Shown: in pieces, positions 16,475 through 52,161 of the stretch
Position numbering within the stretch: position 1 is the first letter of the stretch
Layout: each line of letters opens with the position of its first letter
NCBI GenBank assembly: GCA_947625345.1
Contig: CANQNX010000003.1
Coordinates: 1-57,922 of the forward strand
Direction: 5' to 3'
DNA from: Candidatus Gastranaerophilales bacterium
Lineage (GTDB): Bacteria; Cyanobacteriota; Vampirovibrionia; Gastranaerophilales; Gastranaerophilaceae
DNA: 57,922 bases
Program-made: the position numbers and the translations under genes
Notes under the pieces: model-generated
Seen by the model: only the letters and a program-made list of their open reading frames with translations
Database searches by the model: none
What the model was told of the DNA's origin: nothing

Positions 16475-17395
16475 TTAATTCATAAATTTATCACAAGCCA
16501 ATAAAGCTGCACCTATCATACCCGAATAATTTTTAGCTTTTGCAAGAGATAATTTTACTTTTGATACAACCACTTCATCATTTATATTTTTTTCCATTTC
16601 TTTTGTATTGATATATTCTCCCATACCGCCTGATATTACAATCATTTCGGTATCAAAAATATTAACAAGATTTATTAATCCCGAAACTATATCTTTTTGC
16701 CAAATATTAAAAACTTTAATACAATATGCATCTTTTTGTTTTAAACCTTCAACAATATCATAAGTAGTAATATTGTCAGCTGTTTTGTTATTAAATATAC
16801 TTGTTTTAAAAACATTATCACTTAAAGCAACTTCTTTAGCCGTCAATTTTAAACCCGTCCCCGAAGCATAACTTTCATAACAATCTTTTCTATGGCAAGT
16901 ACAGATTCTGCCTCTGTAATTAATTTTCATACTGCCGATTTCACCGGCTCTGCCTGATTTACCTCGCAATAACTTACCTTCAACTATTATACCGCCACCA
17001 ACACCAGTTCCTAAAGTTATCGTGATATTATTATCATAACCTTTTGCGGCACCGACTTTGTATTCCGCCCAAGCTGCGGCATTTGCATCATTTTCCACAT
17101 AAACTGTTTTTTTACTCAGTGATGAAAAGTCTATTGAATTATATCCTTCGGGCAAATTGGGAGTAGATGACTCAACTTTTGTATTTTCTATATTTACGGC
17201 TCCTGCAGTCGCAAATGCAATTAAATCAATCTCAGATTCATATTCTTTTATTATATCTTTAAACTCACCTATTAATCCTTTAATATCTTTTTTTGTGTTT
17301 TTACGTTGAATTTCGGTTAAAAATTCACCTTTTTCATTCACTATTCCATAAACGATTTTTGTGCCGCCGACATCTATTGCCAATACTTTTGTCAT
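16475..17395 (-). CDS. ROK-family sugar kinase, likely glucokinase or ManNAc kinase
   Basis: 306-residue cytoplasmic sugar kinase. The N-terminal phosphate loop is LAIDVGGTKIVYGIV and the catalytic Asp lies in YVENDANAAAWAEY (about 97-110). The second phosphate motif is TLGTGVGGGIIV. The ROK zinc cluster GRICTCHRKDCYESYASG (about 161-178) keeps the Cys ligands. The start overlaps the nanE stop by 1 nt (TAATG). That pairing suggests N-acetylmannosamine phosphorylation (NanK-like) rather than plain glucokinase, but no other sialic acid gene is in the window, so the substrate is open. Confidence 0.88.
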   Translation of the reverse strand: MTKVLAIDVGGTKIVYGIVNEKGEFLTEIQRKNTKKDIKGLIGEFKDIIKEYESEIDLIAFATAGAVNIENTKVESSTPNLPEGYNSIDFSSLSKKTVYVENDANAAAWAEYKVGAAKGYDNNITITLGTGVGGGIIVEGKLLRGKSGRAGEIGSMKINYRGRICTCHRKDCYESYASGTGLKLTAKEVALSDNVFKTSIFNNKTADNITTYDIVEGLKQKDAYCIKVFNIWQKDIVSGLINLVNIFDTEMIVISGGMGEYINTKEMEKNINDEVVVSKVKLSLAKAKNYSGMIGAALLACDKFMN

Positions 17396-18078
17396 TAAAA
17401 TCCTCTTTCAATAAATCTTTTTGTTATAAGCTGCGGACGAGTAACTGCAGAACCGATTACAACACTGTGAGCACCGATTTCAAATGCCTTATCAACTTCT
17501 TCCGGTGTCCAAATTCGTCCCTCCATTACAACAGGAGTTTTAATTTTATCGACTAATGCCTTTAACAAATCAAAATCAGGAGTTTTTAACCCGTTATCCG
17601 TATAGCTTGTATACCCTGATAAGGTTGTAGATACAATATCAAAACCTAAGTTTTCGGCATTTATTCCCTCTTCTAATGTTGATATATCCGCCATTATTAA
17701 CTTATTTTTTGATTTTATATAATTTACAATATCTTCCAAAGAATCTTCTTCTCTTTTTCTTAACGTTGCATCCAATGCTATTATGTCGGCACCTGCCTCT
17801 ATCAAACCTTTAGCAGCTTTTATATTCGGAGTTATATAAACAGTATCTTTCCAATTATCAGGCAATTTTTCAGGCTTTGTAAGCCCTATTACGGGGACAT
17901 CAAACATTTTTTTAGCGTTTCTGACATCTCTTTTTCCTGCAACCCTTAGAGCTTTTGCACCGCCGTTTATTACAGATTGCATCATCGCATTTATACACTC
18001 TTCCTTGTATAAAGGCTCTCCTTTTGCTGCTTGTACCGAAATTATTACCTGATTTTTTATATCATCTGTTATACTCAT
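17395..18078 (-). CDS. nanE: N-acetylmannosamine-6-phosphate 2-epimerase
   Basis: Converts ManNAc-6-P to GlcNAc-6-P, linking ManNAc or sialic acid salvage to glycolysis. TIM-barrel protein of 227 residues from this start. Family stretches are VIISVQAAKGEPLY at the N-terminus, GGAKALRVAG, DVPVIGLTKP, DIIALDATLRKR (about 109-120), LIMADISTLEEG, and VVMEGRIWTPEEVDKAFEIGAHSVVIGSAVTRP (split reading). The ATG at 18078 is chosen because the only strong promoter lies immediately upstream; a GTG at 18105 would sit inside that promoter. The gene is coupled to the downstream ROK kinase. Confidence 0.9.
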   Translation of the reverse strand: MSITDDIKNQVIISVQAAKGEPLYKEECINAMMQSVINGGAKALRVAGKRDVRNAKKMFDVPVIGLTKPEKLPDNWKDTVYITPNIKAAKGLIEAGADIIALDATLRKREEDSLEDIVNYIKSKNKLIMADISTLEEGINAENLGFDIVSTTLSGYTSYTDNGLKTPDFDLLKALVDKIKTPVVMEGRIWTPEEVDKAFEIGAHSVVIGSAVTRPQLITKRFIERGF

Positions 18079-18084
18079 ATATTT

Positions 18085-18113
18085 ATTGTACTTACTCTTA
18101 TTCACACTTGCAA
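18085..18113 (-). promoter_or_regulatory. nanE promoter, leaderless geometry
   Basis: On the minus strand TTGCAA (18113-18108), 17 nt, then TACAAT (18090-18085), then only 6 nt to the nanE ATG. A start of transcription 7 nt after the -10 box would fall on the A of the ATG. No Shine-Dalgarno is present. It sits directly after the terminator of the upstream phosphofructokinase gene, so an own promoter is expected here. Confidence 0.55.
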
Positions 18114-18167: not shown

Positions 18168-19847
18168 TTATACAGCCGTCAACTTTGACGAATTTTCAAG
18201 TTTAAGTGTTTCCGTTGTTATATCGCAAACATCAGAGGGTCCAAAATATTGAATAGAACCGGGGAAAATGTATTTATCTTCATAAGCCCAAGAGGTTCTG
18301 TTCTTTTCAAGTTCTTTAAATACGGGACCATCAAGTTCAACAAGTGCTTTTTTAATAACGGGTTTAAATTCGCCGTGACGTTTTTCCATATTCATCATCA
18401 TTGTTAAAGGAACACCGCCTGCAACCCATTTACTTGCGGGAGCAGAAAGGTTTTTAACTGATGATAAGTAGCCTGTTAAACCGAATTTTAATAAAGCAAA
18501 TGCATTATAACCTAACGAATAGCAATAGTCTGCATCAAAGTTTGACGGGAATGCACATCTGCCTTCATATCCGAAGAAGTGGCATTGAGCCGAGAATTTA
18601 CCCGAGTATGTGCCTTGCTTTTTCATTTCATTTAATCTTGCGCTTACCATTTCAATTAAAAGCTTTTCTGTTTCAATCTTAGAAACCTGAACATTTCCGT
18701 GGGGGTCTCTATCCATAAGCAATTGTTGTTTAATCATGGTAGGAAGCGAAGAAAATACTTCGCTGTCATCTGAATTTAATTTACCTTTTATGATTTCAAA
18801 TTTAGCATTTTCTTCTGCGTTTTTATAGTTATCGTCGTTTTCAAGAGCAGCTAAGGTATCATTTAAGTTTGAAATCATTGATTTAATTTCGGGTATAAAT
18901 TCAATTAAGCCTTCAGGAATTAAGGCAATACCGAAGTTTTTACCCATTTGCGCTCTTTTTGCAACAATTTCAGTCATATTATCAACGATTTGTTTTAAAG
19001 ACATTTTCTTTTGTTCAACTTCTTCAGAAATTAAAGTAATATTCGGCTGAGTTTGAAGTGCAACTTCAAGACCTACGTGGGTTGCGCTTCTGCCCATTAA
19101 TTTAATGAAGTGCCAATATTTTTTAGCACTGTTTGCATCTCTTAAGATGTTGCCTACAAGTTCTGCGTATGTCTTTGTAGCTGTATCAAAACCGAAGGAG
19201 ATTTCTATTTGGTCGTTTTTAAGATCGCCGTCTATGGTTTTGGGGCAGCCTATAACTTGAATGCCTGCATTGTGGTTTACAAACCATTCAGCCAGCATAG
19301 CTGCGTTTGTATTAGAATCATCTCCGCCTATGATTACAACACCTGTAATATTTAAGTCTTTGCATACCTGCCAAGCTTTTTGGAACTGTTCTTCCGTTTC
19401 AAGCTTTGTTCTGCCTGAACCTATAATATCAAAACCGCCGGTATTTCTGTATGCGTTAATTTTTTCATCGGTAAATTCAATGTATTTACCGTCAATAATA
19501 CCAGAGGGTCCGCCTAAGAAACCGTATAATTTATTTTCACTGTTTGCTTGTTTTAAAGCATCATATAACCCTGCAATGACATTATGTCCTCCGGGAGCTT
19601 GTCCGCCTGAAAGAATAACACCTATATTTCTTTTTTCGCTTACTTCTTTATTATTTGAAGTGTTAAATGTTACAACGGGCTTACCGTATGTGTTTTTGAA
19701 TAATTCTTTAATTTGTTCCCTGTCTTTTACTGATTCGGTCTTATTACCTTCAGTCATTGTGAGATTATTTATTCCGCCCGCTAAAGAAGACGGTAATTTG
19801 GGTTGATATTTTAATCTTTCAATTTGAAGTGAAGAAAGTTCTTTCAT
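18168..19847 (-). CDS. pfp: Pyrophosphate-dependent 6-phosphofructokinase
   Basis: Phosphorylates fructose 6-phosphate with PPi, reversible glycolytic step. The 559-residue length is that of the long PPi-PFK class found in plants, spirochaetes and chlamydiae, not the 320-residue ATP enzyme. Key motifs: [18 protein letters not shown] (about 77-94), [14 protein letters not shown] near 174-187 with Asp in place of the Gly that favours ATP, and [11 protein letters not shown] with the Lys of PPi users. [19 protein letters not shown] follows. A Shine-Dalgarno CGGAG precedes the ATG. It is a single-gene unit closed by a terminator. Confidence 0.93.
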
Positions 19848-29817: not shown

Positions 29818-30489
29818 ATGAGGAAATTCGTTGTTTTAATAATATTATTCATATTTACGGTTTTTAGCTTGCCCGCATTGGCAGATATATTACCGTTAAG
29901 TACTAAAAGCGTTAAATATTACGGAATAGGTGTTTTAAATGTACCAAAAAGTTATAAAGTATACAAATATCCGTATTTTGATTCTGTTGTTATAAGAGAA
30001 GTTAATTATGAAAATATCAAACGTTCAGCTATTGTAAATACGGTTGATATGAGAAAAATATCTTATATAGCTTATGTCCCCTCAAGTAATATTGCCCTTT
30101 TAACAGTTGATTTAAATCCGGGAAATGATTGGTATAGTGTATATATTAATCAATCAACGGGAGAAACCGGCTGGATTTATATTGAAGATGAAAATGCTTT
30201 TATGACATACAGAACTTTATTTTATAAGTATGGCAAAAAATACGGTGTAAGAATGTTTAATGATTTATCAAAAGATGAAAAAGTTTTATATTCCAAAGAA
30301 GATAAATCATCTAAAATACTTGAAAATTTAACTTATCCGAAACATATTAATTTTACCGTAATCAGGGGTAACTGGATGTTGGCGGTAGTTAATGACATGA
30401 CAGAACATGCCAAAGTGGGCTGGTTTAATTGGCGAAATGATGACGGAACTTTAAATATGTTCCCGAATTTCAATGAAGTTGATAATTAA
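29818..30489 (+). CDS. Exported SH3-like hypothetical protein
   Basis: 223 residues. A signal peptide covers about 1-22 (MRKF, hydrophobic core, cleavage near PALAD). The mature part has two beta-rich segments with SH3b character: VPKSYKVYKYPYFDSVVIRE ... WYSVYINQSTGETGWIYIED (to about 122) and VLYSKEDKSSKILENL ... GNWMLAVVNDMTEHAKVGWFNW (about 160-210). The repeated W-[MY]-x-V and GWI/GWF patterns are typical. A periplasmic or wall-binding role is inferred. The stop overlaps the convergent gene by 4 nt. Confidence 0.7.
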   Translation: MRKFVVLIILFIFTVFSLPALADILPLSTKSVKYYGIGVLNVPKSYKVYKYPYFDSVVIREVNYENIKRSAIVNTVDMRKISYIAYVPSSNIALLTVDLNPGNDWYSVYINQSTGETGWIYIEDENAFMTYRTLFYKYGKKYGVRMFNDLSKDEKVLYSKEDKSSKILENLTYPKHINFTVIRGNWMLAVVNDMTEHAKVGWFNWRNDDGTLNMFPNFNEVDN

Positions 30490-44684: not shown

Positions 44685-45668
44685 ATGGATTATAAAAATT
44701 TAAAAATTTTAATTGTAAGATTAGGTGCTATAGGAGATGTAGTTCATACAACGGCACTTTATCGTGCAATTAAAAAACTTGATTCAAACATTCAAATTCA
44801 TTATCTGACAAGCGAATTGATAAAACCACTTTTACAGAAAGATTGTGACTTAGATAAAGTTATAACAATTAATCCTAAATTTAAACTTTTTTCTCCCGAA
44901 TTCAAAGAAATTTCAACCATCCTAAAAAAAGAAAATTATGATGTGGTATTTAATTTACAACCCTCCTTCAAAATTAAATTATTACTCTTCTTATCAAAAA
45001 TTAAAAAACGCTTTTCCTATAAAAAAAGTTTTAAAATACACGCAGTAACTAATTTTTGGCAAACAGGGTTAAAATATTTTCCTCAACTGCAACAAGAAAA
45101 AGATTTAAAAATAATACTGCCTGAAGAGTATATAAACAAAGCACAAGAAAGACTGAAAAATTTGCCTCGACCACTAATCGTAATAAATGCAGGAGGTATA
45201 TTGTCAAAAAGGCAGGGCAGAACTTATCCTGTTGACAAATGGGTAGAGTTGGGAAATAAAATTCAGGAAAAATATAACGGAACAATAATCTTAAACGGAG
45301 CAAAAGAAGATAAAGAACTATTATCACCTTTAGATAAAATTAAAAATTCGATAAACTATATAGGCGAGTTAGAGCTGATAGAATCTTGCGCCGTAATATC
45401 TCAATGTGATTTAATGATATCAGGGGATTCAGGCCCGTTACATATAGCTTCCGCACTAAATGTCAAGTCAATCGGACTTTATGGTTCCATGCCGGAAAAA
45501 AGAACGGGGGTATATTGTAACGGTAAGAATATAGTTTCAAATAAACAATGTGTAGCCTGCAATAAAAGAAAATGCAGATATTTAAAAGGAACCAAAAAGC
45601 TTTATGCACCTTGTATGGAAGAAATTCCAACCGATAAAATCATGGAATGCATATCAGATTTAATCTAG
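44685..45668 (+). CDS. Glycosyltransferase family 9 (heptosyltransferase-like)
   Basis: 327-residue GT-B fold enzyme of the ADP-heptose:LPS heptosyltransferase family. The opening ILIVRLGAIGDVVHTTALYRAI (in two parts) is diagnostic. The second domain has INAGGILSKRQGRTYPVDKW and the donor-binding SGDSGPLHIASALNVKSIGLYG (about 246-267). A Cys cluster near the C-terminus (QCVACNKRKCRYLKG ... PCMEEIP) is typical of the group. LPS core assembly is the likely job, which agrees with the lipid A genes; the sugar is not certain. Confidence 0.88.
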   Translation: MDYKNLKILIVRLGAIGDVVHTTALYRAIKKLDSNIQIHYLTSELIKPLLQKDCDLDKVITINPKFKLFSPEFKEISTILKKENYDVVFNLQPSFKIKLLLFLSKIKKRFSYKKSFKIHAVTNFWQTGLKYFPQLQQEKDLKIILPEEYINKAQERLKNLPRPLIVINAGGILSKRQGRTYPVDKWVELGNKIQEKYNGTIILNGAKEDKELLSPLDKIKNSINYIGELELIESCAVISQCDLMISGDSGPLHIASALNVKSIGLYGSMPEKRTGVYCNGKNIVSNKQCVACNKRKCRYLKGTKKLYAPCMEEIPTDKIMECISDLI

Positions 45669-49845: not shown

Positions 49846-52161
49846 ATGAAACAAGTTATCGCTTATGTTCATTCTCATTGGGACAGAGAATGGTATAGAG
49901 AATTTGAAGAATTCAGATTAAGACTGATTGAAGTTGTTGATGAAATCTTATCAGCTTTAGAGAATAATGAAATACCCTGTTTTTATTTTGACGGACAAAC
50001 TTGTGCACTTGAGGATTATCTTGAAATAAGAAAAGATAAACTTGAATTAATTAAAAAATTAATTAAAGAAAAAAAACTGAGAATAGGTCCGTTTTATTGT
50101 TCCGTTGACAGTTTTTTGGTTTCCGGTGAACTTTTTATAAAAAATCTTGAATTGGGAACAGAAAAATCAAAAGAATTAGGTGAAAAAGAGTTTATAGGAT
50201 ATTTATCGGATACTTTCGGACACAGTGAAGCTGTTTGTTATATTTTAAAATATATGAATATTAACAAAGCTTGCCTTTGGAGAGGCTTAGGTGATAAAAA
50301 AGCAGACCTTAACTGGAACGGAATTAATGTATTATATCTTATTCAAGGTTACTTTCAGGATTTTCTGAATTTAAACCTGCCTATTGAGCAAAAAGCAGTA
50401 TATTTAAAGAAATATCTCGATAAAATTTCGAACAAAAGTGGAGATTATATACTTCTTCCGATAGGTGCAGATCATTTAACCATAGCTAAAAATCTAAAAG
50501 AACAAATCGAAGAACTCAACAAAATTTATAAAGAATATAAAATAAAAATTTCAACTCCTTTTGAATATTTTAATAAAATAACAAAACGTGAAAAGGTAAG
50601 AGGTGAATTCTTAGATAACAGCTTAAATTTTACGCTTTCGGGTGTTTATTCTTCAAGAATATATATAAAACAAGCAAATCAACATTCTCAATGGCTTTTA
50701 AGCAGAATAGCAGAACCTTTAAATTCCATTGCTCATCATTTTTATAATGCAAAAAATAAAAAAGAAGAATTGGATTATGCATACAAAACATTAATAAAAA
50801 ATCACGCCCATGACAGCATTTATGGCTGCAGTACAGACAAAGTTCACAGAGAAATGATGACAAGGTTTGAAAATGTTAACACAATCTCAAACGGTATAAT
50901 AAAAAGGTCTTTGAGAGATTTGTCAATGAATGAATCACACTTAAGTGTAATAAATTTATCGGAATATGAGTACAATGGATGTATAAAAATAGTTACGGCA
51001 AAAAAACTTCCCCCTATGATGAATGCCATAAAAGTTAAATCTTACAAGGGTTTTTCGGATAAAAAATTATACAATATTAATGAAATACCTGTAACCGAAG
51101 ACTATACAACAATTAACGAATATTTATCGGATGTTAAAAATTTAAAACCCTTTTCAATAACAAAGATTACGGACAAAAATATAAACAAAGAAATATTTTT
51201 AAAAACAACAAAAAATTCCATTGAAAATCAATACATAAAGTTTGAAGTAAAAGACTCTAAAATAATAATTACAGATAAAAAAACCGATACAAAGTATACC
51301 GACTTTATTACTGTTTCCGACAGAGCTGACATTGGTGACAGTTATAACTTCGGTGCTTTAAAAAATGATAAAGAAATAAAATCTCAATTATTAAATTGGA
51401 AATTAATTGAGTCAAATAATATAAGAGCTGTTTTAAAACTAACACACATAATAAACATACCAAAAGAATCTTCAAAAAAAGGAAGAAGTAAAAAAGTATA
51501 TAAACACAAAATAAACACAGATGTAATTTTATATAATCAAAGTAAATATATTGAATTTAAAACGGATTGGGAGAATAAAAGTAAAAATCATATTTTACAA
51601 ATTAACTTCAAATTAAAAGATAAAATATATAAAACAATAAATGAGGATTTATTCGGAACAACAGAGCGAAAATTCAATCCCGATTACAATATCTGCGATA
51701 ATTTGCCAAAAGAAAAAGGAAAAGAAGTAAACCCGAACACTTCACCAATGCAAAGATTTATGAGCTGCAATAATTTTGGACTTATTACAAAAGGTAATCA
51801 GGAGTATGAAGTTGAAAAGAATTTTATAAAATTAACCTTATTAAGAGCAACGGGAAGAATATCCGAACCTGAAAATCCAAACAGAACAACGCCAGCAGGC
51901 CCGCCGATTGAAACCCCCGAACTTCAATGTATAGGGAAAAACAGTGCAAATTTTGCAATAACATTTACCGTAAATGAGATGTTTAAACTGTCAAACGAAT
52001 TTTATAACTCAACACTGACACTTTTTACAGATATTGAAGATAAAGTATTTTTTAAAACAGAAAACAAGATAGTATATTCCGTAAAAACAAATAACGAAAA
52101 TATACAATTAAGAGTATTTGACAATAATAAAAAAGAAATTTCAAATATCGTAATAAAATAA
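49846..52161 (+). CDS. Glycoside hydrolase family 38 alpha-mannosidase
   Basis: 771-residue retaining alpha-mannosidase. The zinc and substrate motif VHSHWDREWYREFEEFRL is at residues 7-24. The nucleophile Asp lies in GYLSDTFGHSEAVCYIL (about 123-139). ANQHSQWLLSRIAEPL begins the middle helical domain, and NHAHDSIYGCSTDKVHREM (about 320-338) gives the other zinc His. The C-terminal beta domains follow. No signal peptide is seen, so it acts in the cytoplasm, probably on imported mannosides or N-glycan fragments. No mannoside transporter is nearby. Confidence 0.92.
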   Translation: MKQVIAYVHSHWDREWYREFEEFRLRLIEVVDEILSALENNEIPCFYFDGQTCALEDYLEIRKDKLELIKKLIKEKKLRIGPFYCSVDSFLVSGELFIKNLELGTEKSKELGEKEFIGYLSDTFGHSEAVCYILKYMNINKACLWRGLGDKKADLNWNGINVLYLIQGYFQDFLNLNLPIEQKAVYLKKYLDKISNKSGDYILLPIGADHLTIAKNLKEQIEELNKIYKEYKIKISTPFEYFNKITKREKVRGEFLDNSLNFTLSGVYSSRIYIKQANQHSQWLLSRIAEPLNSIAHHFYNAKNKKEELDYAYKTLIKNHAHDSIYGCSTDKVHREMMTRFENVNTISNGIIKRSLRDLSMNESHLSVINLSEYEYNGCIKIVTAKKLPPMMNAIKVKSYKGFSDKKLYNINEIPVTEDYTTINEYLSDVKNLKPFSITKITDKNINKEIFLKTTKNSIENQYIKFEVKDSKIIITDKKTDTKYTDFITVSDRADIGDSYNFGALKNDKEIKSQLLNWKLIESNNIRAVLKLTHIINIPKESSKKGRSKKVYKHKINTDVILYNQSKYIEFKTDWENKSKNHILQINFKLKDKIYKTINEDLFGTTERKFNPDYNICDNLPKEKGKEVNPNTSPMQRFMSCNNFGLITKGNQEYEVEKNFIKLTLLRATGRISEPENPNRTTPAGPPIETPELQCIGKNSANFAITFTVNEMFKLSNEFYNSTLTLFTDIEDKVFFKTENKIVYSVKTNNENIQLRVFDNNKKEISNIVIK

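Follow-up and report, generated by a model that had tools for sequence, protein, structure and literature searches.

A conserved -10-like element six nucleotides before the ATG predicts a leaderless nanE mRNA in Gastranaerophilaceae

We identified a putative sigma-70-type promoter six nucleotides before the start codon of nanE, a gene for a putative N-acetylmannosamine-6-phosphate 2-epimerase, in a genome of Candidatus Gastranaerophilales (family Gastranaerophilaceae). The gene occupies positions 17395-18078 on the minus strand of the 57,922-nt stretch of DNA that was analysed, referred to here as the window. Judged from sequence comparisons, this promoter very probably gives rise to a leaderless mRNA that has no Shine-Dalgarno (SD) sequence and begins at, or within about 1 nt of, position 18078. 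RNA polymerase bound to TTGCAA-17-TACAAT would start at or next to 18078, a site proposed because of the promoter geometry and its conservation, and the nanE message, probably together with that of the adjoining nanK-like gene, would carry neither a 5' leader nor an SD. Ribosomes would then bind the 5'-terminal AUG directly in a 70S-type initiation, a step that we propose because of published work on the translation of leaderless mRNAs (PMC5397173, PMC9031893).

The preliminary description of this DNA had reported the pattern TTGCAA-17-TACAAT-6-ATG on the minus strand and the lack of an SD before nanE, and both readings proved exact. The minus strand of the window runs from the -35 element TTGCAA (18113-18108) through a 17-nt spacer to the -10 element TACAAT (18090-18085), whose place is kept in nanE orthologues, and then through AAATAT to the ATG (18078-18076). 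The first T of TACAAT lies 12 nt before the A of the ATG, and this A, at 18078, is the predicted transcription start. The -10 element is thereby spaced for transcription to begin at, or within a few nucleotides of, the start codon, which would be AUG, and no SD-like word was found within its reach in the upstream sequence of the minus strand. In the list of open reading frames, the longest nanE frame opens nine codons 5' of the ATG, at a GTG (18105-18103) lying between the -35 and -10 elements; we rejected it in favour of the ATG, which is backed by the sequence, the nanE orthologues and upstream stop codons.

The nanE product matches NCBIfam NF002231 at 257.8 bits (cut-off 189) and Pfam PF04131 at 195.3 bits (cut-off 27). 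On its 3' side is a gene for a ROK-family, NanK-like sugar kinase (16475-17395, minus strand), which matches the ROK family only (Pfam PF00480) and stays below the NanK cut-offs of NF003461 (148 versus 283 bits) and NF047821 (123.1 versus 450 bits). The ATG of the kinase gene overlaps the nanE stop codon (TAATG), and therefore the two genes probably share one transcript. The 5' neighbour of nanE is pfp (18168-19847, minus strand), encoding diphosphate-fructose-6-phosphate 1-phosphotransferase (TIGR02477, 843.6 bits, cut-off 587.95), which has an SD leader.

An alternative reading is that nanE is transcribed with a leader, by read-through from pfp or from a start further upstream, and is translated from an SD-less ATG, TACAAT being there by chance. 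We regard this as unlikely. A strong hairpin with a U-run separates the two genes, at about 18152-18120 on the minus strand between the pfp stop codon and the -35 element, in keeping with the earlier placement of the promoter directly after a terminator. This rho-independent terminator-like structure of pfp folds at -17.7 kcal/mol (z -4.39), and none of 200 shuffled sequences was as stable. A terminator scan of the minus strand did not list it, probably because the A/U run was absorbed into the stem. By eye, a similar hairpin occupies the same place in L003, where pfp is directly upstream of a nanE with 74% identity. Within the genus, pfp adjoins nanE in the genome of the window and in G026, and in G034 about 3.4 kb separates the two on a single contig; in the other genus genomes that list both genes they are on different contigs, some of these assemblies being fragmented. 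The genomic neighbourhood is thus no explanation for the conservation of the nanE -10 element. The Pfp protein is 98-99% identical in G029, G030, G033 and G039, where NanE reaches only 67-68%; in many other members of the genus Pfp is 84-89% identical. Such high identity may reflect strong constraint or transfer.

What favours a chance occurrence of TACAAT is base composition, since the sampled genome has 30.9% GC and the pattern, taken within the AT-rich window alone, shows no excess over chance. The window holds 6 copies of TAYAAT-N6-ATG, where shuffled sequences hold 3.96 +/- 1.92, and 10 of TAHAAT-N6-ATG, where they hold 7.99 +/- 2.84; promoter-like sites between 14000 and 23000 number 47, with 41.7 +/- 6.2 expected. 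For this reason the promoter was tested by comparison with relatives, and the weight of the call comes from orthologues and genome-wide counts, not from the window motif alone.

We found nanE in all but one of the 41 genus genomes and in 115 of 117 sampled genomes of the family. Upstream regions were taken from the 40 genus genomes, from 70 of the 115 in the family sample (36 genera with no more than five genomes each; five of the 70 were already among the 40) and from five loci of named relatives. This gave 110 loci, and 107 distinct rows after L041, L058 and L091 were dropped as duplicates; a -10 hexamer was scored with at most one mismatch. Of the 107 rows, 78 have a -10 box 5-8 nt ahead of the start codon. 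By distance, there are 45 matches at 6 nt, 26 at 7, 7 at 8 and 11 at 9, followed by 0-6 (mean 2.6) at each of positions 11-33 and a renewed rise to 11 at 35 nt. Only one of the 78 rows with a close -10 (L006) has an SD word. Counted by genus label, 32 of 40 labels hold at least one row with a -10 at 5-8 nt, the labels having been typed by hand and four named relatives standing under labels of their own that may repeat a genus. The start codon is ATG in 102 rows, GTG in 4 and TTG in 1 (L022).

We then kept one row per genus label, requiring an ATG start and the absence of a close upstream frame; of these 33 rows, 25 had the -10 at 6-7 nt, as compared with a mean of 1.95 and a maximum of 7 in 2000 shuffles. 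In these 33 rows the commonest base reaches 70-79% in each of the six -10 columns and does not exceed 70% in any other column from -45 to -1, the highest of which form a T-run at -21 to -17 (61-70%). Among the 78 rows with a close -10 there are 21, spread over 12 genus labels, whose start codon has shifted against the aligned start of the protein by -9 to +9 nt with the -10 spacing kept. The -10 is displaced together with the ATG, and therefore what is conserved is the spacing to the start codon and not a position in the gene. A spacing that many genera share, and that follows the start codon when it shifts, speaks against a leadered mRNA with a fortuitous hexamer. A -35-like TTG stands at spacer 17 in 16 of the 78 rows (8 genus labels) and at spacer 18 in 5, with at most 2 at other spacings.

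The same rows bear on the start of translation. Were NanE to begin at GTG 18105, the protein would gain nine residues; the frame is open there, the alignment to NF002231 pairs residue 3 of the ATG form with profile position 7, with four profile positions to spare, and 43 of the 107 rows have no in-frame stop within nine codons upstream. The other 64 rows do have such a stop, which is evidence against the GTG. Furthermore, this GTG lies inside the promoter with no SD before it, and no conserved peptide was seen by eye upstream of the ATG. A start at the GTG is very unlikely indeed, and the preliminary placement of the nanE start nine codons 3' of the opening of the longest frame stands.

A minority of 29 of the 107 rows have no -10 at 5-8 nt. 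Twelve of them carry a -10 at 9-10 nt, corresponding to a leader of about 2-4 nt, and one of the twelve (L028) also has an SD. The remaining 17 have no -10 at 5-10 nt, and 7 of these have an SD word. In L027 no -10 was recognisable at a suitable distance. Two loci, L112 and L117, combine a -10 located 22 nt upstream of nanE with an SD word. In the four rows with a GTG start (L012, L013, L017 and L019) the ATG has been lost: the GTG follows TATAAT by 9 nt, and ATT stands at the old start position. By eye, CATGGTCAATTTG was seen just upstream of the nanE -10 in L112, L117, L123, L125 and L127, all distant family members; it is perhaps an operator or a -35 variant.

We flagged rows in which any open frame of at least 70 codons ends near the start, a definition that includes chance frames. 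The 24 flagged rows have the -10 at 5-8 nt in 12 cases, at 9-10 nt in 2 and at neither in 10 (5 of them with an SD); among the 83 unflagged rows the corresponding numbers are 66, 10 and 7. In L042, L043, L044 and L057, nanE lies 9-11 nt behind an open frame and is preceded by an SD (GAGG or AAGG) with no close -10. That these copies behind other frames possess an SD, whereas the nanE of the window has none in reach, again argues against a leadered message in the window. There are, on the other hand, 11 rows directly behind a frame of at least 70 codons that have a close -10 and no SD, where read-through is possible. L008 and L010 have nanE 8 nt behind long frames with the -10 kept at 7 nt and no SD, and therefore the contrast between SD and -10 behind other frames is not a rule. 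In L009 and L011, nanE overlaps the preceding frame and has neither a close -10 nor an SD.

Two further genes, pfp and a miaB-like gene that was named by eye, were chosen for comparison, with 30 loci each taken within the genus. After removal of seven duplicates and one short upstream region, 22 distinct pfp rows remained, all with an SD word and none with a -10 at 6-7 nt; 20 of the 25 -10-like matches of pfp lie 31-38 nt upstream, at the end of the scanned range. For the miaB-like gene, from which one duplicate was dropped, 26 of the 29 distinct rows have the -10 at 6-7 nt and none has an SD word. Many rows of this gene (L233-L262; L079, 15742-17061) share GTTTAAAGTATAAT or a near variant. 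The adjacent pair of nanE and pfp thus has opposite predicted modes of initiation.

Three family genomes were then sampled: G000, the genome of the window; G019, of the same genus; and G107, of another genus. The G000 sample comprised the window plus 20 stretches (457,922 bases) with 397 open reading frames of at least 90 aa, and the -10 words were TA[TCA]AAT, TATTAT or TAATAT. Each frame of at least 90 aa was started at its first ATG, for which reason some starts in these counts are wrong. In G000 a -10 word lies 6 nt before the ATG in 26 of 397 frames (p 1.8e-16) and 7 nt before it in 6, where the positions at 2-5 and 9-15 nt give a background of about 3 each. The counts climb again further upstream, to at most 13 in the region of 24-30 nt, as expected of promoters that produce leaders. 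At 6 nt G019 has 14 of 341 (p 2.9e-6), with single positions further upstream reaching 13, and G107 has 21 of 330 (p 2.3e-12). Internal in-frame ATGs served as a control and have no peak at that distance (6 of 2267 in G000, 7 of 1981 in G019 and 5 of 1997 in G107). Above background, roughly 3-6% of the sampled genes carry a -10 at 6 nt.

These genes also lack SD words. In G000 none of the 32 genes with the -10 at 6-7 nt has an SD word, as against 223 of 365 others (p 6e-13); the proportions for genes with a close -10 versus others are 0 of 16 versus 171 of 325 in G019 and 2 of 27 versus 185 of 303 in G107. From the three genomes, 73 leaderless candidates were chosen solely by a -10 at 6-7 nt and the lack of an SD. 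TTG stands at spacer 17 in 15 of them and at spacer 16 in 8, with at most 6 at any other spacing from 10 to 30, although it is absent from the expected spacer in most candidate and nanE rows. Because this unselected TTG is enriched at spacer 16-17, the close hexamer is read as a promoter element, and the evidence points to a -10. The earlier proposal of a leaderless nanE mRNA is supported by this -35 signal together with the conserved spacing and the genome-wide peak at 6 nt.

The hexamer could instead act in translation, for example as an S1-binding site, and PMC5397173 names RPS1 binding as a possible cause of the AT-rich bias found before genes that lack an SD. This explanation is distinctly improbable, as the word is TATAAT-like, is sharply placed and is accompanied by the -35 TTG at spacer 16-17, which had not been selected for. 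A promoter that yields a leaderless nanE mRNA remains the reading that we prefer.

For the family as a whole, we lean towards a two-mode system of initiation in Gastranaerophilaceae, in which a largely gene-specific leaderless set exists beside SD-led genes and the mode is a selected, heritable property of the gene. The leaderless set would be the above fraction of roughly 3-6% of sampled genes, with the -10 at 6-7 nt before the ATG, and would include nanE and the miaB-like gene; nanE would be leaderless over some 30 genera, neighbours such as pfp would be SD-led, and nanE copies that follow another gene can have an SD instead. The system is possibly tied to conditions under which the two kinds of mRNA differ in their translation. 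Against this stands a weak gene-by-gene agreement between the sampled genomes. Among reciprocal best pairs with at least one predicted leaderless member, both members are leaderless in 2 of 7 (G000-G019), 2 of 8 (G000-G107) and 0 of 3 (G019-G107). Several discordant pairs consist of proteins whose first residues fall at different places in the alignment, and differing start choice therefore makes up part of the discordance. The weak agreement limits any claim of a fixed set of leaderless genes. Outside the family but within the class, 20 of the 61 nanE matches were inspected by eye and showed no general pattern upstream; small samples from three other families, with a -10 at 6-7 nt in 3 of 106, 0 of 113 and 2 of 93 genes, gave no peak.

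Leaderless genes are already known in other bacteria, and nanE is, on the comparative evidence, a well-supported further case. According to PMC3160421, the signal TANNNT about 12 nt upstream of the start marks leaderless genes, is TATAAT-like in low-GC genomes and lies at the usual distance between -10 and transcription start. The nanE box resembles these TA-led genes in its distance of about 12 nt, in the lack of an SD and in having been deduced computationally. The list of groups with detected leaderless genes in that paper does not include Cyanobacteria by name, and many cyanobacterial genomes are said there to use neither SD-led nor leaderless genes. In contrast, the signal described here occurs in Gastranaerophilales, a non-photosynthetic cyanobacterial lineage, beside common SD words. 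In Deinococcus-Thermus, a -10 abutting the open reading frame drives leaderless expression, as tested with reporters (PMC12340547). The arrangement predicted for nanE is the same, but it covers about 30% of open reading frames in that group, compared with the much smaller fraction of sampled genes given above. In the photosynthetic cyanobacterium Synechococcus elongatus UTEX 2973, 19 gTSSs were judged leaderless (PMC6091082); that organism belongs to the same wide phylum and a different class, and its 5' ends were measured.

In the open-licence PMC literature, we found no paper that pairs "leaderless" with Melainabacteria, Gastranaerophilales, Vampirovibrio or nanE. What is new, then, is a lineage predicted to use leaderless mRNAs for this fraction of its sampled genes, which extends sequence-predicted leaderless expression to Gastranaerophilales. 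The analysis also corrects the start of nanE and offers a rule for annotating genes in this uncultured gut lineage, namely to look for a -10 box 6 nt ahead of the ATG instead of an SD. Four other genes in the window are predicted to be leaderless, all on the plus strand: 90-665, encoding a VTT-domain protein; 29818-30489, with no Pfam match; 44685-45668, encoding a family 9 glycosyltransferase; and 49846-52161, encoding a GH38-type alpha-mannosidase-like protein, the products being named from Pfam.
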